From contig JACVCK010000006.1 of the NCBI GenBank assembly GCA_016742055.1, forward strand, positions 1 to 35,950: a stretch of 35,950 nt of DNA, written 5' to 3'. Shown here one piece after another: positions 2,343 through 35,950 of this stretch. The notes under the pieces are model-generated. The model did no database searches. It worked only from the letters and a program-made list of their open reading frames with translations, and was not told the origin of the DNA. The position numbers and the translations under genes are program-made. The first letter of the stretch is position 1, and every line of letters starts with the position of its first letter. The stretch comes from Phycisphaerales bacterium (GTDB taxonomy: Bacteria; Planctomycetota; Phycisphaerae; Phycisphaerales; UBA1924).

Positions 2343-2529
2343 CCCCGCCGTTCGGCTGCCCCGGGCTGTGCGCCGAAACGTGGAAAGGGCGCGGGCTGTG
2401 CGTCCGAGAACTGCAACCTCCCGAACAGGTGGGGACGTATAGGGGATGGTCGGCCGCATGGGCGGGGCCCTCCTCCTGCTGTTCATCCCCGCTCAGCCGC
2501 TTTCGAACGCGAAGAGAAGGAGTCCTCGG

Positions 2530-4050
2530 ATGCCCAGCCGAGCGGTCCATCGTCCGGGTGCGCAAGCCATTGTGCTGTCAATAATTATGATGAGCGGCGC
2601 GCTCGCCGATCCGCCGCTGACGTTCGGGCCGGCGGGGTCGGTCGAGGGGGGCGTCAAGGTCTTCTACGACCAGGTCCAGCCCGATGGCTCGCTGCGGGGC
2701 GGGAGCCGGCTGGTGCGGGGCGAATCGCTGGGTCGGTGGGTCGGGCTCGTGCCCATCAGCGACGTGACGATGGTGCTGGAGCCCCAGGGCGTCGGCGCCA
2801 ACGGGGACAATCGCTTCGACCTCGTCTTTGTCGGCGACGGCTACCGGGGTCCGCCCCCGCCGACCATCGCGAACACCACGGCCGTGCCGCCGGATGAGAA
2901 CCTGCCGCCCACGGCGACCGATTTCCAGAACTACGAGCGGCACGTCGGCGGCGCGCTGTACCGGCTCTTCGACATCGAGCCGTTCCGGCGCTACCGGCCG
3001 GTCTTTCGATCGTTCCGCGTGGATGTTCGTTCAAACGAATCAGGAGTCAGCAATGACCCTGTCGAGGGCGTCATGCGCGACACCGCGATGGATATGCGGT
3101 TCTGGTGCGACGGCGTCGAGCGCCTCCTGTGTGTGAACACCATCGCGGCGCAGCAGTACGCCGACCAGGCCCCGTTCCTCGACCTCATCGTCGCCGTCGC
3201 CAACTCCACCAAGTACGGCGGCAGCGGGTACCTCGGTCAGAATGTGCTGACGATCAGCGGCGGCAGTTCCACGGCCTATCACGTCACCGCCCACGAGATC
3301 GGGCACGTGCTCGGGATCCTCGCGGACGAGTACGCCGTGGATGAACTCTTCGAATGGCCCGGGGGCGAGCCGTCCGACCCCAATCTCTCCACGTTCGAGG
3401 CGCCGGACATGGTGGCGCTGAACGGCAAGTGGGCGGCGTGGATCGGCAACGACCTGCCGGGATTCGATGGGCCCATTTGGACGTACGAGGGCGGCGGGTT
3501 CTACCAAGGGGGCGTGTTCCGTCCGAGTCCGAACTCCGCCATGCGGACGATCGGCCGCCCGTTCAACGTCGTCGCGCTCGAGCGGCTCGTGGTGGGCATC
3601 TACACCCGCGTGGACCCGATCGACAGCGTCAGCCCCGCCAGCGCCGTGGCGACGCCGAACACGGTGTTCTCCGTCGAACCGATCCCCGTGGTCGGTGCGC
3701 CCTTGACCGTGCAGTGGTTCCTCAACGGCATGCCCCTGTCGGTCCCGGTCGAGAACGTGTTCGACCTGTCCACGATCACGCTTCCTCCCGGCATCCACCA
3801 GGTCAGCGCCCGCGTCACCGACCCCACGACCTTCGTGCGCTCTCAGGCGCTCCGCGAGCAGTGGCTCACGCAGACCCGGAACTGGATCGTCGAGGTTCCC
3901 GCGGCGGGGGCGGCGGGCGCTTCGCTCACCGACGCCGCGGCGGCGCTGAGGCAGTGGGGCGAGAGCGGCGCCGGCCTGGAGGGCGACGTGAACCGGGACG
4001 GACGGGTTGACCTGCGCGACCTGCTGCGAGCGCTGGGCGCCCGGGAGTGA
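2530..4050 (+). CDS. Secreted peptidase family M64 (IgA-peptidase-like) metalloprotease with C-terminal dockerin-like motif
   Basis: NRFDLVFVGDGY, KYGGSGY and the zinc motif HEIGHVLGILADEY (3292-3333), typical of M64. C-terminal GDVNRDGRVDLRDLLRALG (3982-4047) resembles a dockerin/EF-hand repeat. Start 2530 has a purine-rich SD (AGAAGGAG) and gives a signal peptide; ORF extends upstream to 2446. Confidence 0.85.
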   Translation: MPSRAVHRPGAQAIVLSIIMMSGALADPPLTFGPAGSVEGGVKVFYDQVQPDGSLRGGSRLVRGESLGRWVGLVPISDVTMVLEPQGVGANGDNRFDLVFVGDGYRGPPPPTIANTTAVPPDENLPPTATDFQNYERHVGGALYRLFDIEPFRRYRPVFRSFRVDVRSNESGVSNDPVEGVMRDTAMDMRFWCDGVERLLCVNTIAAQQYADQAPFLDLIVAVANSTKYGGSGYLGQNVLTISGGSSTAYHVTAHEIGHVLGILADEYAVDELFEWPGGEPSDPNLSTFEAPDMVALNGKWAAWIGNDLPGFDGPIWTYEGGGFYQGGVFRPSPNSAMRTIGRPFNVVALERLVVGIYTRVDPIDSVSPASAVATPNTVFSVEPIPVVGAPLTVQWFLNGMPLSVPVENVFDLSTITLPPGIHQVSARVTDPTTFVRSQALREQWLTQTRNWIVEVPAAGAAGASLTDAAAALRQWGESGAGLEGDVNRDGRVDLRDLLRALGARE

Positions 4051-7856: not shown

Positions 7857-8291
7857 GTGCGTCGGCGCTCGCACATGCCGGAAGACTCCGTGGCGCCGGT
7901 CAACGCGACGCCGCTGATCGACGTCGTGCTGTGCATGATCGTCTTCTTCCTCATCGTCGGGCGGCTGGCGGAGACGCAGCGGACGCCGATGCGCTTGCCC
8001 GAGTCCTCCGTGGGCTCGGCGCAGATGCCGCCCGACTCGTTCGTCGTGAACATCATCCCCGGCGAGGGCGGCGTCGGCGCGCAAGTCATCGTCAACAACG
8101 CGGACGTGGGCTTTGAGGGCATCGAGCCGGCGCTGCGCGAGCGGCTGGAGCGCCAGCCCAACGTCGTCGTGCAGATCCGCGCCCCGCGCGATGCGCCCTA
8201 CGGACTGATCGAGCCCGCCCTCGAGGCGTGCGCCAAGGCCGGCGCGCCCGAGTTCCGCCTCGCCACCGAACGCGCGGGGGGCGGGCTGTGA
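7857..8291 (+). CDS. ExbD/TolR-family biopolymer transport protein (copy 1)
   Basis: GTG start; VNATPLIDVVLCMIVFFLIVGRLAETQ (single TM with Asp), periplasmic C-domain. Confidence 0.85.
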   Translation: MRRRSHMPEDSVAPVNATPLIDVVLCMIVFFLIVGRLAETQRTPMRLPESSVGSAQMPPDSFVVNIIPGEGGVGAQVIVNNADVGFEGIEPALRERLERQPNVVVQIRAPRDAPYGLIEPALEACAKAGAPEFRLATERAGGGL

Positions 8292-8767
8292 GCGCGTTCC
8301 GCCGCCGCAACGCGGCCGTTGTGGCGGCGCGCCACTTCGGGCCCAACATGACCCCGATGGTCGACATCGTGATGGTCATCCTCATCTTCTTCATGGCCGG
8401 GTCGGCGTTCATCGGCCCTGAATGGTTCCTCGACGTGGGCATGGCCGCCGGCACGCGCGCCGCCCCGCCCGAGGACGCGCCCACGCCGTCGATGGAGTTG
8501 CCGCCCGCGCGGATGGTCGTGCGCCTGCACGCGGGCCCCGGAGGCGCCACGGTGGCGACGGGCCTGGGGCTCGAAGGCGCGCCCCTCGAAGCGCTGGAGG
8601 CCCGCGTCCGCGAGTACGTCCGCGCCGGCGGCGCCGATCGGATCCGACTGGTCGTCGAGCCGGCGCGGAACACGCCCTACCAGGACGTCATCCGCGTCTA
8701 CAACCTGTGCCTGACCTCCGGCGCGCCCGACGTCTCGCTCGCCAAATCGCGCGAGCCGGCGCCCTGA
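8288..8767 (+). CDS. ExbD/TolR-family biopolymer transport protein (copy 2)
   Basis: GTG start overlapping the previous stop (GTGA); NMTPMVDIVMVILIFFMAGSAF; C-terminal NTPYQDVIRVYNLCLTSGAPDVSLA. Confidence 0.83.
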   Translation: MSAFRRRNAAVVAARHFGPNMTPMVDIVMVILIFFMAGSAFIGPEWFLDVGMAAGTRAAPPEDAPTPSMELPPARMVVRLHAGPGGATVATGLGLEGAPLEALEARVREYVRAGGADRIRLVVEPARNTPYQDVIRVYNLCLTSGAPDVSLAKSREPAP

Positions 8768-8771
8768 GCGC

Positions 8772-9218
8772 TCAGCGGGCCGCGGCGTAGATCTGCAGCC
8801 GGTGGCCGTGGGGCTCCAGCCCCCGTTCGCGGCAGATGCGGTCGCGGATGGCGATGAGTTCGGGGATCTCGATGGGGATCATCTCGTTGGTGTCCACGCG
8901 GACGAGCAGGTCGCGCGGGCGCCGACCGTAGGCGAGTTGATAGTGCGTCTGCTCCGAATCCACCAGCACCTGCTGGATGATGCCGGCCTCCTGGAGCAGT
9001 TTGATCGTGCGGTAGATCGTGGCCTTGCTCACGCGGAACCCGGCGCGCTTGAGTTCCTCCTGCAACTGCTCCGCCTGGAACAGGTCGTCGAGCCGGATGA
9101 TGGACTCGAGGATCTGAGCGCGCTCCGGGGTGTACTTCTGGCCCTGCTTTTTCAACTCGCGACGGAACACCGCGCAGAGGGGTTCGGCGATTGAGATGCG
9201 GGGTTGAAAATCTTCCAT
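8772..9218 (-). CDS. Fur-family transcriptional regulator (divergent; canonical metal-binding motifs not seen)
   Basis: KKQGQKYTPERAQILESIIRLDDLFQAEQLQEELKRAGFRVSKATIYRTIKLLQEAGII is a clear Fur winged helix. The dimerisation domain reads THYQLAYGRRPRDLLVRVDTNEMIPIEIPEL with no HHHDH or CxxC. Confidence 0.88.
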   Translation of the reverse strand: MEDFQPRISIAEPLCAVFRRELKKQGQKYTPERAQILESIIRLDDLFQAEQLQEELKRAGFRVSKATIYRTIKLLQEAGIIQQVLVDSEQTHYQLAYGRRPRDLLVRVDTNEMIPIEIPELIAIRDRICRERGLEPHGHRLQIYAAAR

Positions 9219-9242
9219 GCGGTGTGCGGCCTCTCGGGCGTG

Positions 9243-9248
9243 AGTTTA
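9243..9248 (-). promoter_or_regulatory. Candidate -10 element (TAAACT) for the Fur-family gene, overlapping the polX stop codon
   Basis: On the minus strand TAAACT lies 24 nt before the ATG at 9218; the TAA is the polX stop. Confidence 0.3.
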
Positions 9249-11048
9249 GCGGCGGGCGGGCTTCCTGCCGGGCTTGGGCCCTTTCGGCTCCGGGCCGGGC
9301 TCGCGACGCAGCCACGCGCGCAGGCGCTCGGCGGACCACGTATTGACGCAGCGTTCGGGCGTCAGGCCGCCCCGCCGGCCGGTCAGGACCCCGTAGCGCA
9401 GGTGATCGAAGTCCGTCTCGGCGTGGACGTCGCAGTCGATGGCGATGAGCGAGCCCGCCTCCAGCGCCGCCCGGACGTGCGCGTCGCGCAGGTCGAGCCG
9501 GAGCCAATTGGCGTTGATCTCGAGCGCGACGTTCCGGGCGGCGGCCGCCTCGGCGACGGCCCGGATGTCGATGCTCAGCCCTGCGCGCTTGTTGATGATC
9601 CGGCCCGTGGGGTGCCCGAGGATGCGGACGTAGGGGTTCTGGACGGCGCGGATCAGCCGTGCGGTGGCCTCCTTCTCGCTCTGGCGCAGGGACGCGTGCG
9701 GAGAGGCGACGACGATGTCCAGCCGGGCGAGAAGTTCGTCTTCGTAGTCGAGCGAGCCGTCGGCGAGGATGTCCACCTCGCTGCCGGCGAGGATCGTGAC
9801 GCCCTCGACGTTGCGGCGGGCCGCGTGGACGGCCTCGATGTGCTCGAGCAGCCGCTCGGGCGAGAGGCCGCCCGCGATGGCGCTCGACTTGGAGTGATCG
9901 GTGACGGCGATGGTGTGGAAACCGCGCGACTTGGCGGCGCGCGCGAGTTCCTCGATCGACATCGCGCCGTCCGAGGCGGTGGTGTGCGCGTGCAGTTCCG
10001 CGCGGACATCGCCCTGTTCGATCAGCCCGAACGCCTGCCCCGCAGGGCGGTCCAGTTCCCCGGCGTCCTCCCGCAATTCCGGCGGAACGAAGGGCAGTTC
10101 GAGCGCCGCGTACACATCCGCCTCGGTCTTCGAAGCGACGGCTCGCACGCCCCGGCTCTGGGGCGGCGCTTTCGCCTTGTCCTCGGGGTACAGGCCGTAC
10201 TCGTTGAGCGTCATGCCCATGCGCAGCGCACGCTCGCGGAGCCGGACGTTGTGCTCCTTGGAGCCGGTGAAGTACAGCATCGCGGCGCCGAACGACTCGG
10301 GCGGCACGATGCGCAGGTCGGCCTGCACGACGTGCCCGCGGGCCGTCTTGAGCCGCACGGACGACTTGGACTCGCCCGCCGCGAGGACCTGCGTGACCTC
10401 GGGCATCGAGCGGAAGGCCTCGCCCAGTCCGGCGCCGTCTGTCACGGCGGCGAGGATGTCGATGTCGCCGATGGTGTCCTTCCCGCGCCGGAGGGAACCG
10501 GCGTAGGCCACGGCGCCGGCCCCTGCGATCGGCGTCAGGCGCGCGACGATCGCTTCGGCGATGGGCATCGCCACGCCCAGCGGCATGCGCTCGCCCGCCT
10601 GCGCCGCGAACGTCAGCGCCGCTTTGATGTTCTCCACCGTCTTGGCGCCCATCCGGGGCACGGTCAGGATCGAGCCGTCATCGATCGCCCGGCGGAGCGC
10701 GTCGAGGGAGTCCACGCCGATCGTCTGCCACATCGCGCGGACGGTCTTGGGCCCCAGGCCGGGGATCTCGAGGACCTGCAGCAGCCCGGGGGGCGTGGCG
10801 GCGAGCAGTTCCTGATGCTCGGACATCGCCCCGGTGTCGAGGTATTCGCGGATCTTCTCCGCGATCTTCTTGCCCACGCCGGGGATGGCGTCGATCGCGT
10901 CGCGATGGTCGGCGAGGCTCGTGGGATGGTCTTCGATGGCCCGCGCGGCCCTCGCGTGGGCCGAGGCGCGGAAGGAATCGGCGCCGTTGAGTTCAAGGAG
11001 TGCGGCGATCTGTTCGAGCAGCGCCGCGATGTCCTGATTCACGCCCAT
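9246..11048 (-). CDS. polX: DNA polymerase/3'-5' exonuclease PolX (N-terminal HhH and pol beta, C-terminal PHP)
   Basis: IPGVGKKIAEKI (HhH), YAGSLRRGKDTIGDIDILAAV (pol X site), RAELHAHTTASDGAMS, AVTDHSKSS, GSEVDIL, GHPTGR, LEINAN, CDVH (PHP blocks). Start MGVNQD at 11048 preferred. Confidence 0.92.
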   Translation of the reverse strand: MGVNQDIAALLEQIAALLELNGADSFRASAHARAARAIEDHPTSLADHRDAIDAIPGVGKKIAEKIREYLDTGAMSEHQELLAATPPGLLQVLEIPGLGPKTVRAMWQTIGVDSLDALRRAIDDGSILTVPRMGAKTVENIKAALTFAAQAGERMPLGVAMPIAEAIVARLTPIAGAGAVAYAGSLRRGKDTIGDIDILAAVTDGAGLGEAFRSMPEVTQVLAAGESKSSVRLKTARGHVVQADLRIVPPESFGAAMLYFTGSKEHNVRLRERALRMGMTLNEYGLYPEDKAKAPPQSRGVRAVASKTEADVYAALELPFVPPELREDAGELDRPAGQAFGLIEQGDVRAELHAHTTASDGAMSIEELARAAKSRGFHTIAVTDHSKSSAIAGGLSPERLLEHIEAVHAARRNVEGVTILAGSEVDILADGSLDYEDELLARLDIVVASPHASLRQSEKEATARLIRAVQNPYVRILGHPTGRIINKRAGLSIDIRAVAEAAAARNVALEINANWLRLDLRDAHVRAALEAGSLIAIDCDVHAETDFDHLRYGVLTGRRGGLTPERCVNTWSAERLRAWLRREPGPEPKGPKPGRKPARR

Positions 11049-24013: not shown

Positions 24014-24499
24014 ATGACACCGACGACTGCCCTCCTCACCCTCGAGTCCACGATTTTCTCCACGCCGATGCTGTATTTGGCGCAGGCCGACGCGGCGCCG
24101 CCGGTGGCGGGCCGTTCAGACGGCGGCGCCGTGACGGGCGAATCTGGCCAACCCCTGGGCGGCGGCGGCGGCTCGGCGCCTCCGCCGACCGGGATGGGCT
24201 TCCAGTTCATGTTCCTCATGGGCGGCCTCCTGCTGTTCATGATCCTCATGCAGGTGTTCGCGGGCCGCAAGGAGAAGAAGCGGCGCGCGGAGATGCTCGG
24301 CTCGCTCCGCCGTCACGACCGTGTGGTGACCATCGGCGGGATCATCGGGCACGTCGCGGAGGTTCGCGACGACGAGGTGGTTCTGAAGGTGGACGAGTCC
24401 ACGAACACGAAGATCCGCGTGACGCGCGCCGCCGTGCAGAGCGTCCTGAAGAAGTCGAGCGCGGAGGAGCGCCCCGTCGCCGAGGCCGCCAAGGCCTGA
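24014..24499 (+). CDS. yajC: Preprotein translocase subunit YajC
   Basis: TM FMFLMGGLLLFMILMQVFAGRKEKKRRAEMLGSLRRHDRVVTIGGIIGHVAEVRDDEVVLKVDESTNTKIRVTRAAVQSV; located between tgt and secDF. Confidence 0.92.
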   Translation: MTPTTALLTLESTIFSTPMLYLAQADAAPPVAGRSDGGAVTGESGQPLGGGGGSAPPPTGMGFQFMFLMGGLLLFMILMQVFAGRKEKKRRAEMLGSLRRHDRVVTIGGIIGHVAEVRDDEVVLKVDESTNTKIRVTRAAVQSVLKKSSAEERPVAEAAKA

Positions 24500-24551
24500 T
24501 CGACGCGCCAAACGCCGTCTCGCCCCCGCTCGCCCCGCCTTGATACCCACT

Positions 24552-27500
24552 ATGTCCCGACTCATCCGAAACACCGTTCTTCTGCTCGCGCTGCTGGTTC
24601 TGGCGGCGCTGGCGATCATGCCCCCCTCCGAGAAACTGCGTCGAGGCAAGGACCTCGCCGGCGGCGCCACGCTGGTCTACGCGGTGGAGGTGGACGCGAC
24701 CGAGAGCGCCTCCAACGTCCTGAGCGCGACGATCGAGGTGCTCAAACGGCGCGTGAACCCCACGGGCGCCCTGGACATCTCGATGGTGGCGCAGGGCGAC
24801 AACCGCATCGAGATCTCGATGCCCCTGCCGAGCGAGAACGTGCGCGCCCTCCGCGCCGCGTTCGAGGCCGCGCTCGCCGCCACCGGCACGCGCGCCATTC
24901 CCCCCTCCGAACTCGAGCGCGTGATGCGCCTCGGCGCCGCCGAACGCGTCGCCGAACTGGCGAAACTGGCCGACGGCAGCGCCCCGCGCCTCGAGATGCT
25001 CCGCGCCGCCGCGCTGCGCTACGACGAGGCCCAGCAGGCCCGCGCCGCCTTCCGCGAGGCCCAGCGCGCCGAGGCGGACGCCGCCGTGCAGGACCGGCTG
25101 CTGGACATCGCGGCCCAGGCGGAACTGGCGTACGAGGCCGCTCGCGACGGCGCGCTCGCCTCCGCTGTGAACCCGGACGAACTGCGCCGCGCCCTGGAAC
25201 TGCCCGACACACTGCGCATGATCGCGGACCGGGAGGCCGGGACGGCGGTGACGATCGGCAGCCCGCGCGACCGCGCGATCGCGCGCCTCATCGAGACGCA
25301 CCCCGAGGCCGCCGACGGCATCGCCGCCGCCGTCACCGCCTACGAGCGGTACGAGGCCGAGCGTTCGGGCCTGGACGACCCCGCGGACCTCATCCGCCTG
25401 CTCAAGGGCGCCGGCGTGCTGACGTTCCGCATCGCCCCGCAGCCGGGGCAACTGCCGGAAGAGGCCCGCCTGCGCGCCGAACTGCACGAGCGCGGCCCGC
25501 GCGCCGCCCGCTCGACCGACGCCCGTTGGTACCAACTCGACAACGTCGAGGCCTGGTACGACAACGTGCAGGAACTCCGGGCGCTCCAGGCCGACCCCGT
25601 CGGCTTCTTCGCGAGCCGCCGCTACATCGTCGAGGAGCGCGACGGGCTCTACTACATGCTCCTCTACGACGCGCCCGGCCTGCGCCTGACCGACGCCGAG
25701 GGCTCCTGGCGCGTCACCCAGTCCTTCCAGCAGGCCGACCAGTTCGGCCGCCCGGGCATCGCGTTCCGCATGGACACGCGAGGCGCCACGCTGCTGGCTG
25801 AACTCACCGGCTCCAACGTCAACCGGTCCATGGCCGTCCTGCTTGACGACCGGGTCTACACCGCCCCCAACCTCATCTCCGAAATCGGCGCCCAGGGGCA
25901 GATCACCGGCGTCTTCACCCCCGAAGACATCCAGTACATCACCCAGACCCTGCAGGCCGGCTCGCTCGCGGCGAAACTCTCGGCAGAGCCCATCAGCCGC
26001 AGCGTCACAGGGCCCGAACTCGGCGCCGACAACCTCCGGCGCGGCCTGCTGGCCGGCGGGTACGCCTTCGTGGCGATCGCGGTGTTCATGGTGCTGTACT
26101 ACTTCACCTGCGGCGCCGTCGCGATCGGCGCCCTGGTGACCAACGCGCTCCTGCTGCTGGCGCTGATGGCCGTGGGGCGCGCCTCCTTCACCATGCCCGG
26201 CATCGCGGGCGTGATCCTGACCTTCGGCATGGCGGTCGACGCCAACGTGCTGATCTACGAACGCATCCGCGAAGAGTTGATCGCCGGCCAGACGCTCAAG
26301 GCGTCGGTGCGGCTGGGCTTCCAGCGCGCCATGTCGGCGATCATCGACGGCAACATCACCACGCTGGTCGTGGCGCTGGCCCTCTACTGGACCGGCACGA
26401 CCGAGATCAAGGGCTTCGCCGTCGTGCTGGCGATCGGCATCATCACCACGCTGTTCTCGGCGCTGGTGGTCACCCGCATCCTGCTGACGTGGCTGACCGA
26501 GGGGCTCAAACTCAAGAAGATGTCGATGCTCCCCTTGGCGATCCCCGCGCTGGGGCGCGCGCTCGAGCCCCGGATCGACTGGATCGGCCTCCGCCACGTG
26601 TTCTACGCGATCTCCGGCGGCCTGATCATTCTCAGCGCCGCCGTCATGGTGCGCCAGGGCGCTGAGATGTTCGACAACGAGTTCCGGGGCGGCACGGCGG
26701 TGACCGTGCGATTCAAGAGCGAGGGCGGCGCCGACGGCGGGCCGCTCACCCTCACGCGACAGCAGGTCGAGCAGCGCGTCCGCGAACGCGCTCAGAAAGA
26801 GCCCGCCGGCTCCGAACTCGCGCGCCTGCTCACCGCCGACGTCATCGCCGTCAATCCTCAGGCCGACCAGATCACCTCCAACGTCTTCACCATCAAGACC
26901 GTCGCCACCGACGCCGACGCGGTGTCCGCCGCCATGATCGAGGCCTTCGCCGACGTGGTGGACGCCCGCCCGCCCATCGCCATCGGCGACATCCGCACCG
27001 CGCCGCTCACGCAGGCGGCGCTCGGCGACAGCGTCGGCGAGCCCTCCATCCGCGACGACGTCGCGGCGTTCCGGGGCGGCGTGGCGGTCGTGGCCCGCGG
27101 CCTCGAGCCGCCGCCCACGCTCGAGGAGATCGAGACGCGCCTCGAACAGATGGGCGCCCAGCCGGACCACGCCGGCTCGCTCACCCGCACGCATCGCATG
27201 GTGATCCTCGAGGGCGACCCCGGCGCCGTCCGCTCCTTCGCGCGCGTCGCCTTCGACCCGCAACTCTCGTTCTTCGACGACGAGGCCCGCTGGCGCACCG
27301 ACGTGGCCGAGGCCGAGGCGGCGCTGGTCTCCGACGCGCTCGAGCGAGGGAGCACCCTCGCCGGCGTGCAGAACTTCAGCCCCGCCATCGCCCGCACGTT
27401 CGTCGCCCAGGCCGCCGTCTCGGTGATCCTGAGCGTCGTCGGCATCCTGATCTACGTCTGGGTCCGTTTCGGCTCGATGCGGTACAGCGTCGCGGCGGTG

Positions 27501-28004
27501 GTGGCGGACGTGCACGACGCCTTCATCGCCGTCGGCCTGGTCGCCGTCGCCGAGATCGTCTACGAGAAGGCCCCCGGCTTCGCGTCGCTGATCGGCCTGC
27601 AGCCCTTCAAGATCGACCTGGCCATGGTCGCCGCCATCCTCACCGTGCTGGGCTACTCGCTCAACGACAAGATCGTCGTCATGGACCGCATCCGCGAGAA
27701 CCGGGGCAAACTGGCCTACGCCTCGCGCGACGTGGTCAACCTCTCCCTCAACCAGACCTTCAGCCGAACCGTCATCACCGGCACGACCACGCTCTTTTCC
27801 TGCCTCATGCTCTACATCCTCGCCGGAGAGTCCATCCGCGGCTTCGCGTACGCGATCTTCATCGGTGTCATCGTGGGGACGTATTCCTCGATCGCCATCG
27901 CGGCCCCGATGGTTTGGAGCAAAGCCGCCCCGCCTTCCAAGCCGATAAGCCGTGGGGGCGAGCCCAAGGCCGCGGACGGCGCCGCGGCCCTCGCCACCAC
28001 CTGA
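24552..28004 (+). CDS. secDF: SecDF fusion protein (protein translocase), enlarged
   Basis: SecD half: LRRGKDLAGGATLVYAVEV, GVILTFGMAVDANVLIYERIREEL; SecF half: FDNEFRGGTAVTVRF, MVAAILTVLGYSLNDKIVVMDRIREN. About 1150 aa. Confidence 0.94.
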   Translation: MSRLIRNTVLLLALLVLAALAIMPPSEKLRRGKDLAGGATLVYAVEVDATESASNVLSATIEVLKRRVNPTGALDISMVAQGDNRIEISMPLPSENVRALRAAFEAALAATGTRAIPPSELERVMRLGAAERVAELAKLADGSAPRLEMLRAAALRYDEAQQARAAFREAQRAEADAAVQDRLLDIAAQAELAYEAARDGALASAVNPDELRRALELPDTLRMIADREAGTAVTIGSPRDRAIARLIETHPEAADGIAAAVTAYERYEAERSGLDDPADLIRLLKGAGVLTFRIAPQPGQLPEEARLRAELHERGPRAARSTDARWYQLDNVEAWYDNVQELRALQADPVGFFASRRYIVEERDGLYYMLLYDAPGLRLTDAEGSWRVTQSFQQADQFGRPGIAFRMDTRGATLLAELTGSNVNRSMAVLLDDRVYTAPNLISEIGAQGQITGVFTPEDIQYITQTLQAGSLAAKLSAEPISRSVTGPELGADNLRRGLLAGGYAFVAIAVFMVLYYFTCGAVAIGALVTNALLLLALMAVGRASFTMPGIAGVILTFGMAVDANVLIYERIREELIAGQTLKASVRLGFQRAMSAIIDGNITTLVVALALYWTGTTEIKGFAVVLAIGIITTLFSALVVTRILLTWLTEGLKLKKMSMLPLAIPALGRALEPRIDWIGLRHVFYAISGGLIILSAAVMVRQGAEMFDNEFRGGTAVTVRFKSEGGADGGPLTLTRQQVEQRVRERAQKEPAGSELARLLTADVIAVNPQADQITSNVFTIKTVATDADAVSAAMIEAFADVVDARPPIAIGDIRTAPLTQAALGDSVGEPSIRDDVAAFRGGVAVVARGLEPPPTLEEIETRLEQMGAQPDHAGSLTRTHRMVILEGDPGAVRSFARVAFDPQLSFFDDEARWRTDVAEAEAALVSDALERGSTLAGVQNFSPAIARTFVAQAAVSVILSVVGILIYVWVRFGSMRYSVAAVVADVHDAFIAVGLVAVAEIVYEKAPGFASLIGLQPFKIDLAMVAAILTVLGYSLNDKIVVMDRIRENRGKLAYASRDVVNLSLNQTFSRTVITGTTTLFSCLMLYILAGESIRGFAYAIFIGVIVGTYSSIAIAAPMVWSKAAPPSKPISRGGEPKAADGAAALATT

Positions 28005-28039
28005 CCCCGGTCCGGGACCATCGTCCCCGGAGGTCCGCG

Positions 28040-28723
28040 ATGCGCAGCGGTCGTGAGCGACTGGCTCTTGGGCTTGGTCTGCTGGCGGCGCTGTGGGTTG
28101 TGGTGTACTGGGCATGGCCCGTGGAGCGCGAGCCGGCCATCACCTTCGCCGACGAGCCCGCGGGCGCCTCCGAACCCATTGTCCAGGCGCCCGTCCCGGC
28201 CCCGGTTCAGCCGCCGCCCGTGGCGACGCGCCCGCCGCCCGAGCGCACGCCCGCGACCGCTTTCCCCGAGCGCCCGCGCGTCGGCGTCGTGGCCCCCGAG
28301 TTCACCACCCACACCGTCCGCGCCGGCGAGTCGTTCCAGACCATCGCCAAGAAGGCCTACGGCGACGCGGCGCTGTGGTCGGTCGTGGCGCGGGCCAACC
28401 CGCGCGTGGACCCGCGCAAACTTCGCGTCGGCCAGGAACTGCGCCTGCCCGTCGATCCGAACAACGTGCAGGGCCTGACGGTGGGGGACCCCAAAGCCGT
28501 CGACGCGCCGCCGCCCACGCGCGCGGCGCAGGCGGTCGAGTACATCGTGCAGCCCGGCGACACCCTTGGGGCCATCGCCAAGACGTACTACAACTCCTCA
28601 GCCCTGTGGCAGGTGATCCTCGACGCGAACCGCTCGCTGCTGTCGCGCCCGCAGGACCTCCGCCCGGGCATGAAGTTGCTGATCCCGCCGGACCCGCGCG
28701 GGGCCACGGGCTCGGGGCGCTGA
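28040..28723 (+). CDS. LysM-domain membrane-anchored protein (two LysM-like repeats)
   Basis: N-terminal TM LALGLGLLAALWVVVYWAWP; Pro-rich linker; HTVRAGESFQTIAKKAYGDAALWSVVARANPRVDPRKLRVGQELRLP and YIVQPGDTLGAIAKTYYNSSALWQVILDANRSLLSRPQDLRPGMKLLIP. Confidence 0.9.
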   Translation: MRSGRERLALGLGLLAALWVVVYWAWPVEREPAITFADEPAGASEPIVQAPVPAPVQPPPVATRPPPERTPATAFPERPRVGVVAPEFTTHTVRAGESFQTIAKKAYGDAALWSVVARANPRVDPRKLRVGQELRLPVDPNNVQGLTVGDPKAVDAPPPTRAAQAVEYIVQPGDTLGAIAKTYYNSSALWQVILDANRSLLSRPQDLRPGMKLLIPPDPRGATGSGR

Positions 28724-28739: not shown

Positions 28740-32657
<3,918 letters not shown>

Positions 32658-32768
32658 GCGCTGGGTGACCTCCGTGTCGCGCTCCTGCGTGGGCCGCATG
32701 TCCCGCGGCCGCTTCATCCGTGAAGCATCTGGCTCACTCGGGCCGGATCTGCGGCCCTCGTGCATCGC

Positions 32769-34700
32769 TCAACGATCGGGCTTGCGGTCCTTGTCGCCGC
32801 TCTTGGACCCGGGTGGTGGAGTGATGGGCACAACATAACTCGGACGGTCGGCCTTGGGGGGCTCGGCGCCCGGAGAAGTCGCCGGTTTTTCTTGGCCCGC
32901 GACGGCGGTGGGGGTGGTCGGCTGCGGCTCGGCGGCGGGCACGGGGACCGATCCGTCCGAGAGTTCGGGGCGCGGCGAGCCGATCGCCGATTGGGCCGCC
33001 GCCAGCAGTTCGGCCTGGAGGCGGTCCTGCTCGCCGAAAAAGATGGCCGGAATGGCCTTCTGCTTCTCGGTCAATTCGTACAGCGCGCCGACCACCTCGG
33101 AGTAGGAAAGCCCGATGCCGGCGCCGGGGGTCTCCGGAGTGTCCGTCCGCCCGAAGTACTCCACAAGCCGCGGGACGCGGTCGTCGACCGTCGTCCGGGT
33201 CACGCCGTTGGTGCGGTAGTTCTTGTACATCAGCCGGAGGGGATCGGTCGGGCTGTCGGCGGCGAGAATCAGCCGGTCCGACCAGGCGAAGACCAGGGTG
33301 GGACGCTCGACCCGGAGGCCCTCCCCGAAGATCGCGATCCGGGGCTCGCCGCTCTGGGCGACGTAGATCATGGGATAAGACGACGGCGCCACGTCCAACG
33401 TGAACTTGCCCTCGATGGCCCGGCGCTGGATGTACGGGTCCCGACGCTTGGCGAGGGCCTCGTACGCCGCGATGCGGCTGGTCGGTTCCTCTGCGTTGAG
33501 CAGTTCCCGCAGCGCGGTGTTGACGGTGGGGTCGGAGGGGAGTTCCGCCAGAAGGGTCATGGCGTCCCCGCGCATGGCCAGCGGGCCGCTGCGGGCGAGT
33601 TCCTTGAGGTGGGGCGCCGTCAGAGGATCGTTGAGGCGCGCCCCGGCGCGGAGCGCCGTCAATCGCGGAATCGGCTCGGCGTAGTCGTACATCTTCCGCA
33701 GTTCGGGGATCGCCTGAGGCCCTGCTGCCTGAAGGCACCAGCCCAGCGGCAAGGACAGCGCCGGCTGCTCCTTGAGCGCCTGGATGTACCGGCTCGCCCA
33801 CATCTCGGGGTACGAGGTGTCGATCCGCGTGTGCCGCAGGAGTTGGATGAACTCCTGGGGCTGATCCCTCCAGGCGTAGGGGATGGTGAGGGCGATGGAC
33901 TCATCGTCGCGCCCTCGGGCGATGTCGTTGCGGTCCTTTGGGCTTCGGGGGAACTTGGTGTTGATCGCCGAGGTGATCGCGCGCGAACGCAGGTGCGAGG
34001 GGTTGTCGAGCATCAGCAGCAGATCAAGCGGTTCGGTCATGATGCCGCCGTGCAGGATGCGTCCCGTCCGCCGATCGATGCCCCCGTCGGTTTGAGCGGA
34101 GGGGTCCACGAAGGGGTTGGTGTAAATAGGACCCGAGGCCTGAGCGAGGGCCCTGGCGCTCGCGCCCGACACATCGGGGGCGCCGGGACGCAGGTCGGTC
34201 GTCCAGAGCCGGCCCCCTTCGAGACTCGTCGTCGCGGTGCCCGCCAAAGCCCGGACCAGCACATCGAACCGGGCGCCCTTGGGCGCGCCGGGGGAGACGG
34301 AGGCATACACCTCGACCACCGCCGTGTTGACGTCGTTGATGAACGCGCTGGGCGACGCCCAGCCCATCCCGAACGTCTCCTGGCCGACGCCCCGGAGCGT
34401 CATCTCGCGCTCCAGCCAGATCCGCACACTGTCGGGGACGTCCGCCGAGCCGGTGCCGTTCAGCCCGACCACGATCCCGATGCCCGAGACGATCTGAGGA
34501 TCGCCGCCGCGGAGCGTGGTCTCCGACCCGATGATCCCGCGCAGGATGTCCGGAACGTCCCGGACGATCAAGGGCCTGGCCTCGGCGGTCGCCCGCTCGG
34601 GGGCCTTGGGCGCGCAACTCAGCGTCGCGCCCGCCAGAAGGGCGGCGACGGCGGCGGCGAGGGCTCGGCACGAGGGAATCAGGGTGCGGTTCAACACCAT
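32769..34700 (-). CDS. Lipoprotein with FlgI (flagellar P-ring)-like N-terminal region and HEAT-like repeats
   Basis: Lipobox-like LLAGATLSC; IVSGIGIVVGLNGTGSADVPDSVRIWLEREM and NTAVVEVYASVSPGAPKGARFDVLVRALAGTATTSLEGGRLWTTDLRP resemble FlgI; AIPELRKMYDYAEPIPRLTALRAGARLNDPLTAPHLKELARSGPLAMRGDAMTLLAELPSDPTVNTALRELLNAEEPTSRIAAYEALAKRRDPYIQR resembles HEAT repeats. Confidence 0.68.
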   Translation of the reverse strand: MVLNRTLIPSCRALAAAVAALLAGATLSCAPKAPERATAEARPLIVRDVPDILRGIIGSETTLRGGDPQIVSGIGIVVGLNGTGSADVPDSVRIWLEREMTLRGVGQETFGMGWASPSAFINDVNTAVVEVYASVSPGAPKGARFDVLVRALAGTATTSLEGGRLWTTDLRPGAPDVSGASARALAQASGPIYTNPFVDPSAQTDGGIDRRTGRILHGGIMTEPLDLLLMLDNPSHLRSRAITSAINTKFPRSPKDRNDIARGRDDESIALTIPYAWRDQPQEFIQLLRHTRIDTSYPEMWASRYIQALKEQPALSLPLGWCLQAAGPQAIPELRKMYDYAEPIPRLTALRAGARLNDPLTAPHLKELARSGPLAMRGDAMTLLAELPSDPTVNTALRELLNAEEPTSRIAAYEALAKRRDPYIQRRAIEGKFTLDVAPSSYPMIYVAQSGEPRIAIFGEGLRVERPTLVFAWSDRLILAADSPTDPLRLMYKNYRTNGVTRTTVDDRVPRLVEYFGRTDTPETPGAGIGLSYSEVVGALYELTEKQKAIPAIFFGEQDRLQAELLAAAQSAIGSPRPELSDGSVPVPAAEPQPTTPTAVAGQEKPATSPGAEPPKADRPSYVVPITPPPGSKSGDKDRKPDR

Positions 34701-34705
34701 CGGGG

Positions 34706-34711
34706 AGGGTA
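34706..34711 (-). promoter_or_regulatory. Candidate -10 element (TACCCT), 5 nt before ATG (8 nt before the following in-frame GTG) of the FlgI-like gene
   Basis: Minus strand TACCCT-CCCCG-ATG-GTG. Confidence 0.28.
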
Positions 34712-34758
34712 TCCGGAGGGGGAAACCGCTTCCATACGCGGGTTCGGGCAGGAAGGGT

Positions 34759-35487
34759 TCAGCGCGGGGAAGCCGTCGCCTGCGGGGCGCCGACGAGACT
34801 CAGCACATCCTCCACCATGCGCCCGATGCCGGCGTGGATCTCGTGCAACGGCGCGTCCAGCATGTAGGCGGGGGTCGAAACCAGGTGGTTCTCGCGGTCG
34901 ATGCAGGCCTCAACGGCCCGGCAGGCCTTGTGCTGGGCGCCCATCTTCCGGGCCGCGGCCGGGGCGTCGCCCTCCTCCCCGAGGGTGATCGTGCACCCCG
35001 GTCCGCCGTTGGCCGTCCCCAGGACCCGGGCCGCGATCACCGGCGCGATGCAGCACATGCCGATCGGCTTGCCGGCGGCGTGGAACGTCCGCACCACCCG
35101 CGCCACGTCGTCCTCCACCTCGCAGGCAGGGCCGTCCACGGCGAAGGTGCAAAGGTTCTTCGCGGCGCCATAGCCGCCGGGGAAGATGACCGCGTCAAAT
35201 TCCGCGGGGTCCAACTGCGACAGCGGCTGGCTTCCGGGATCGCCGGTCGGTCCGCCCCGGGCGATTCGGGCGGCTTCCTGCAGCATGTTGCGCTGCCGGC
35301 GGGGCTCGACTTCCCCGGAGAAATGGTTGATCGCGTTGGGCTGCTCCTTGTCGGGCGCAAAGCACCGGACGCTGGCGCCCAGCCGGGACAGATGGATCAG
35401 CACGCTCACGGACTCGTGGATCTCGGATCCATCGAACACGCCGCAGCCCGACAGGACGACGGCGACCTTTGCGGGGGTTTTCGCCAT
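34759..35487 (-). CDS. elbB: Isoprenoid biosynthesis glyoxalase ElbB (DJ-1/PfpI superfamily)
   Basis: VAVVLSGCGVFDGSEIHESVSVLIHLSRLGASVRCFAPDKEQ..VINHFSGE, FDAVIFPGGYGAAKNLCTFA, KPIGMCCIAPVIAARVLG, TPAYML. Confidence 0.92.
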   Translation of the reverse strand: MAKTPAKVAVVLSGCGVFDGSEIHESVSVLIHLSRLGASVRCFAPDKEQPNAINHFSGEVEPRRQRNMLQEAARIARGGPTGDPGSQPLSQLDPAEFDAVIFPGGYGAAKNLCTFAVDGPACEVEDDVARVVRTFHAAGKPIGMCCIAPVIAARVLGTANGGPGCTITLGEEGDAPAAARKMGAQHKACRAVEACIDRENHLVSTPAYMLDAPLHEIHAGIGRMVEDVLSLVGAPQATASPR

Positions 35488-35632
35488 GGGAGGCCTCGCG
35501 GATTGCTGTGGCCGGGGACCGGCCTGGGTGATCGGGGTTCCCACGGGGGCGGTGGAGGGTTGGTCCAGCCGCCGCCGTGCGATGGCAGGATGGATGATAG
35601 CGGCGGGTTGGCGGCCCCCGTTGCGGAGGCGC

Positions 35633-35638
35633 TATGAT
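35633..35638 (+). promoter_or_regulatory. Candidate -10 element (TATGAT) upstream of tRNA-Val(CAC)
   Basis: TATGAT 34 nt before the mature tRNA 5' end; TANNNT pattern. Confidence 0.35.
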
Positions 35639-35672
35639 GTCGACCCCCCGGCGAAGGCCTCGGGGCAGTTTC

Positions 35673-35746
35673 GGGCGCATAGCTCAGTCGGCTAGAGCAC
35701 CGTCGTCACATGGCGGGGGTCACAGGTTCGAGTCCTGTTGCGCCCA
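35673..35746 (+). tRNA. tRNA-Val (anticodon CAC)
   Basis: Acceptor GGGCGCA/TGCGCCC; D-arm GCTCAGTCGGCTAGAGC; anticodon stem CCGTC/GGCGG (one T-G wobble), loop GTCACAT; T-arm ACAGG TTCGAGT CCTGT; CCA not encoded. Confidence 0.85.
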
Positions 35747-35822
35747 TTTCGTTGGTAGATCGTGGGAGGTCGAGCGGTCGGGATTGGGGAAGGGTGGGTG
35801 TGGGGCCCCCTCGATTCAGCGC

Positions 35823-35845
35823 GGTCAAGGCGATTTTTCTTGACC
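35823..35845. repeat. Inverted repeat GGTCAAG-9 nt-CTTGACC
   Basis: Perfect 7-bp arms 35823-35829 and 35839-35845 downstream of tRNA-Val(CAC). Confidence 0.8.
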
Positions 35846-35950
35846 ACCCCCCGATTCGAATGTAGTCCTATTGGCCTCTGAGCCACGTCTCCAGGCGTCT
35901 GCCCGGCACGGCGGGCGCTGCGCGGTTCGGCGGGTCGGACAGGGAACAGG

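Follow-up and report, generated by a model that had tools for sequence, protein, structure and literature searches.

A FlgI paralogue with inserted HEAT repeats, encoded beside smc in Planctomycetota and apparently serving outside the flagellum

The open reading frame at 32769-34700 of the window, the whole 35,950-nucleotide stretch of Phycisphaerales DNA analysed here, encodes an apparently undescribed, real and widespread non-flagellar paralogue of the flagellar P-ring protein FlgI, which we call HEAT-FlgI. The protein keeps the three FlgI domains and carries a HEAT-repeat insert together with a conserved lipobox; its family branches apart from canonical FlgI as a clade of its own, is retained in genomes without a flagellum, and lies next to smc. 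With a probability of roughly 0.6, we regard HEAT-FlgI as an ancient P-ring FlgI paralogue taken off flagellar duty, namely a lipid-anchored ring or scaffold of FlgI fold that offers a HEAT docking surface.

Overall identity of HEAT-FlgI

The gene product and its parts are as follows, all on the minus strand.

32769..34700, minus strand: HEAT-inserted FlgI paralogue, predicted lipoprotein, 643 aa (open reading frame; PF02119 and PF13646 above cut-off; P-ring FlgI fold match; conserved family)
34614..34700, minus strand: lipoprotein signal peptide with lipobox Cys29 (Cys29 invariant in 28 relatives; lipidation predicted)
33816..34532, minus strand: FlgI upper inner-ring and outer-ring domains, residues about 57-295 (PF02119 profile 9-228; profile-profile comparison; domain limits from PMC8298488)
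33429..33815, minus strand: inserted HEAT-repeat domain, residues about 296-424 (HEAT_2; helical pairs in the model; insert in every clade)
33015..33428, minus strand: FlgI lower inner-ring (C-terminal) domain after the HEAT insert, residues about 425-562 (family profile against the FlgI C-terminus; a relative, L167)
32772..32975, minus strand: Pro-rich C-terminal tail, probably disordered (most of its residues have a model pLDDT under 50)

The original prediction, made from the DNA letters, proposed a FlgI-like protein with HEAT-like repeats at this place, and both parts stand. Residues 63-295 match the Pfam FlgI family PF02119 over profile positions 9-228 of 343, with 69.3 bits (E 3.7e-19) against a gathering cut-off of 25.3, and the HEAT_2 family PF13646 is matched with 32.1 bits against a cut-off of 27.7. 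The flagellar FlgI models of NCBIfam leave HEAT-FlgI under their cut-offs (51 vs 300). We built an AlphaFold2 model with 28 relatives, which reached a mean pLDDT of 83, and the best PDB matches of this model in Foldseek are Salmonella P-ring FlgI structures (7bgl and others) at E about 1e-12. The comparison with FlgI by profile and by model, which had been proposed as a check, thus returned a significant match by Pfam, by profile-profile comparison and by Foldseek. The FlgI and HEAT matches and the conserved lipobox are well above chance level.

The HEAT repeats are inserted within a complete FlgI

In Salmonella FlgI, the outer-ring domain consists of residues 1-11 and 160-230, the upper inner-ring domain of residues 12-159, and the lower inner-ring domain of residues 231-346 (PMC8298488). 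The N-terminal part of the HEAT-FlgI family aligns with the first two domains of canonical planctomycete FlgI at E 1e-33 in profile-profile comparison, and the HEAT region gave no FlgI match in the same comparison. The insert is present in every clade with a length of 129-173 aa, and HEAT_2 is over its cut-off in five of six distant family members.

Following the HEAT repeats, the family profile resumes its match to the FlgI C-terminus, scoring 37.3 (E 5.8e-5). Column-shuffled profiles (200) scored no higher than 22.7, decoy families (17) no higher than 19.1, and reversed FlgI scored 13.6. An intermediate family member, L167 (genome G202, positions 8024-9742; smc not adjacent), has a C-terminal domain that scores against Pfam FlgI: taken alone, this domain matches PF02119 positions 233-343 at E 1.5e-5 as its only Pfam hit, and positions 235-343 of the NCBIfam FlgI model at E 5.5e-6 as its best hit. 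The isolated C-terminal domain was also modelled with a pLDDT of 94, and a Foldseek search with that model did not recover FlgI; the identity of the domain as FlgI therefore rests on the profiles. On this evidence, the controlled profile match and the Pfam and NCBIfam hits of L167, we ruled out a new domain type.

Since the domain after the repeats is homologous to the FlgI C-terminal domain, the HEAT repeats are an insertion into FlgI and not a C-terminal fusion. About 130 aa of repeats interrupt a complete FlgI where its outer-ring domain meets the lower inner-ring domain. The architecture originally drawn, a FlgI N-terminus joined in tandem to HEAT repeats and followed by a separate further domain, has to be revised accordingly: the HEAT repeats sit inside FlgI, and the further domain at 33015-33428 is FlgI's own C-terminal domain. 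The HEAT segment itself had been placed at about 33413-33720; its presence was correctly read, and its limits were too narrow. The C-terminal tail varies in length and is missing or very short in the families f7-f9.

Paralogy and distribution

On another contig of the same genome, a canonical FlgI gene is clustered with flgH, a FlgA match and a downstream flgJ-like open reading frame, the last identified by eye from the sequence. Because canonical FlgI thus occupies a flgA-flgH-flgI-flgJ cluster in this genome, the gene at 32769-34700 is a paralogue. The earlier remark that no flagellar genes are in view holds within the window and does not hold genome-wide, as flagellar genes lie on other contigs.

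We found HEAT-FlgI in 58 of 61 relatives; in the other three (G021, G026 and G028) the FlgI search finds the canonical copy only. In a phylum sample of 244 planctomycete genomes, full-length HEAT-FlgI is present in all 26 genomes of the same class and, outside the class, in 24 genomes, comprising 20/20 of family f30, 3/3 of f63 and 1/1 of f70; five candidates were scored per genome, which makes the absences elsewhere in the sample weaker. The same architecture, which the original prediction proposed to look for in other Planctomycetota, accordingly recurs in the 58 relatives and in 50 of the 244 genomes. Coverage of other phyla came from 14 control genomes and a single pattern scan over genome contigs; among the best 80 matches of the scan, the named relatives are almost all Phycisphaerales, Phycisphaeraceae, Phycisphaerae or Planctomycetota. 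In a tree of 61 sequences, HEAT-FlgI groups in a single clade (100/100) that splits into two subclades at class level, and canonical FlgI stands apart (100/100), which is consistent with one ancient origin of the HEAT-FlgI clade. Our literature search met no description of HEAT-FlgI and no paper combining "FlgI" and "HEAT repeat", and FlgI is not mentioned in the main text of two planctomycete papers, on the subcellular proteome and on essential genes.

Lipoprotein signal and rod-contact residues

The lipoprotein-type signal noticed in the original prediction is upheld as a predicted lipid anchor, with Cys29 of the lipobox unchanged across the 28 relatives. A lipobox is recognisable in nearly all of 129 HEAT-FlgI members; a few members of f30 (L060/L169, L174 and L175) have no clear one. 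The residue at position +2 after the lipobox cysteine is Asp in only 1 member, for which reason HEAT-FlgI is probably placed in the outer membrane. The sorting rule for Asp at +2 is known from proteobacteria and may not hold in planctomycetes.

Salmonella FlgI contacts the rod through the basic residues Lys-63 and Lys-95 (PMC8298488). At the Lys-95 position, Lys occurs in 1 of 118 HEAT-FlgI members and the basic residue is lost in the other 117; canonical planctomycete FlgI does not strictly keep a basic residue there either, with 10 of 21 carrying Lys or Arg. The Lys-63 position is basic in 27/118 HEAT-FlgI members vs 13/21 canonical planctomycete FlgI proteins. The nearly universal loss at the Lys-95 position, together with an insert between two ring domains that could disturb ring packing, would suit an exapted monomeric lipoprotein whose FlgI fold forms no ring and now acts as a rigid scaffold or a binding module. 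However, even very divergent members keep the three ring domains and the core motifs of FlgI, and we consider such a monomer unlikely while keeping it in view as a serious alternative.

Gene neighbourhood

The genes on either side of HEAT-FlgI are those that had been named before, elbB and smc, both now confirmed by family models.

28740..32657, minus strand: smc, directly downstream of HEAT-FlgI with a gap of 111 bp (TIGR02168, 897 bits; start taken at a stretch of 14 protein letters, not shown)
34759..35544, minus strand: elbB, upstream of HEAT-FlgI on the same strand (NF008747, 262 bits)

HEAT-FlgI followed by smc in the same orientation (window 28740-34700) is a gene pair kept between planctomycete classes: of 100 HEAT-FlgI loci, 78, in two classes, have smc immediately downstream on the same strand, and in that test none has it on the opposite strand. 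Among the 17 loci outside the order, smc is found in 15 and the runner-up neighbour in 3. Loci without smc downstream include L071, L073, L085, L093, L101, L114, L120, L125, L130, L137, L142 and others, and in several of these the next gene is convergent. As a functional neighbour, elbB was ruled out, being present in only 7/81 loci. In the Phycisphaerales loci, a dCTP deaminase-like gene (50/81) and a ribonucleotide reductase-like gene (49/81), both named by eye from the sequence, lie divergently upstream. A consensus scan of the minus strand at 32500-35950 found no terminator-like site, and co-transcription of HEAT-FlgI and smc is likely.

Elsewhere in the window, a peptidase family M64 match occurs at 2446-4047 and a LysM-domain protein at 27914-28720. 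Two long open reading frames on opposite strands overlap at 24342-28115 (minus) and 24540-28004 (plus), and the one on the minus strand has no Pfam match.

The original prediction suggested that the protein might serve the pilus system of the window, and a role as a periplasmic ring or gasket in type IV pilus or type II secretion machinery would agree with several observations. A GspM-like gene (T2SSM match just under the Pfam cut-off) lies at 19-663 on the left window edge, fimbriae are reported in Phycisphaerae (PMC7783415), and every HEAT-FlgI genome of the phylum sample also has secretins. However, secretins occur in 242 of the 244 genomes, with HEAT-FlgI present or not, so their co-occurrence with it cannot discriminate, and the conserved neighbours include smc and no pilus gene. 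The proposed tie is thus unsupported, and a pilus or secretion role seems improbable to us.

The prominence of smc, the only neighbour widely kept outside the order, would fit an envelope protein that acts together with SMC as chromosomes are segregated or cells divide by budding, for instance at the site of division. A predicted periplasmic lipoprotein, however, cannot directly touch cytoplasmic SMC, and smc is not directly downstream in 22 of the 100 loci; we give such a partnership little credence. In the reading that we prefer, the two genes most likely stay together because they are co-expressed.

Retention of HEAT-FlgI without a flagellum

FlgH is absent from 6 of the 61 relatives and, within the phylum sample, from 7 of the 50 genomes that carry HEAT-FlgI, making 11 distinct genomes in total. 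In 10 of the 11 (G042, G048, G050, G054, G058, G169, G286, G259, G263 and G268), the rod proteins (PF00460) are also absent; these ten genomes are 96-99% complete and belong to five families, and FlgA is missing or below cut-off in all of them. The remaining genome, G022, was dropped as an aflagellate case on account of five rod-protein matches, despite FlgH and FlgA not being found. In the six relatives without FlgH, the PF02119 search finds the HEAT copy only.

As ten near-complete genomes keep HEAT-FlgI without rod proteins and FlgH, the protein is not a flagellar part. This result supports the envelope role independent of the flagellum that had been put forward as one possibility, and strict co-occurrence with a complete flagellar gene set, which would have marked a mere variant of the P ring, does not exist in this family. 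Most HEAT-FlgI genomes are also flagellated, a point in favour of HEAT-FlgI as an accessory to the P ring of planctomycete flagella that was retained for some other reason after flagellar loss. Yet besides the ten genomes, the loci examined have no flagellar genes near HEAT-FlgI, and FlgH is present while full-length HEAT-FlgI is absent in 79 of the 244 genomes of the phylum sample, which together make an accessory P-ring component very improbable. Planctomycete crateriform structures are ring-like outer-membrane pits in contact with the inner membrane, with composition not given in PMC5394234, and HEAT-FlgI as their ring is hardly credible, since Phycisphaerae, all sampled genomes of which carry the gene, are reported to have no crateriform structures where examined (PMC7783415).

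Proposed role in the envelope

For a lipid-anchored ring or scaffold outside the flagellum, the reading that we prefer, a mechanism may be sketched. HEAT-FlgI would be lipidated and periplasmic, with its tether probably in the outer membrane, and the FlgI fold would give a ring, an arc or at least a rigid platform beneath that membrane. The inserted HEAT solenoid would project from the rim and dock a partner belonging to some non-flagellar envelope structure. A more specific form of this proposal, which we advance tentatively and at less than even odds, is that two planctomycete lineages build an undescribed membrane-anchored ring of lipid-modified, HEAT-inserted P-ring protein, and that this ring serves a conserved machine outside the flagellum, with a possible tie to the cell cycle via the smc operon.

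Comparison with known ring and repeat proteins

HEAT-FlgI has the same three domains in the same chain order as the P-ring protein FlgI (PF02119; Salmonella 7bgl and 7cbl), with significant similarity in both profile and fold, but there are differences between the two. FlgI is a plain secreted protein with a cleaved signal peptide and no lipid anchor, whereas HEAT-FlgI is a predicted lipoprotein and carries about 130-170 aa of HEAT repeats before the last domain. Its gene stands beside smc and outside the flg operon (flgA/flgH/flgJ), and it is present where the flagellum is missing. Its Lys-95 rod-contact position is basic in 1 of 118 members, against 10 of 21 canonical planctomycete FlgI proteins. 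The flagellar P ring is a 26-fold ring around the rod. The evidence on HEAT-FlgI is genomic throughout. The L-ring lipoprotein FlgH (PF02107) is likewise a lipid-anchored, ring-type envelope protein, a likeness by analogy only: no HEAT-FlgI search matched FlgH, and FlgH is absent from the ten aflagellate genomes with HEAT-FlgI. The inserted helical repeats match those of HEAT_2 and PBS-lyase HEAT-like repeat proteins (PF13646, PF03130), but in HEAT-FlgI they are an insert in a predicted periplasmic FlgI fold instead of a free-standing scaffold.

FlgI is treated as a flagellar marker. A complete FlgI fold is conserved in bacteria without a flagellum, so FlgI hits can mislead the annotation of motility. 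The conserved pairing with smc, and an occurrence in every sampled genome of whole families, suggest that HEAT-FlgI does a housekeeping job. It is an example of a flagellar ring protein put to a different use in the envelope, and its persistence beside smc even after loss of the flagellum points to a non-flagellar, seemingly undescribed role in the envelope of these planctomycetes.
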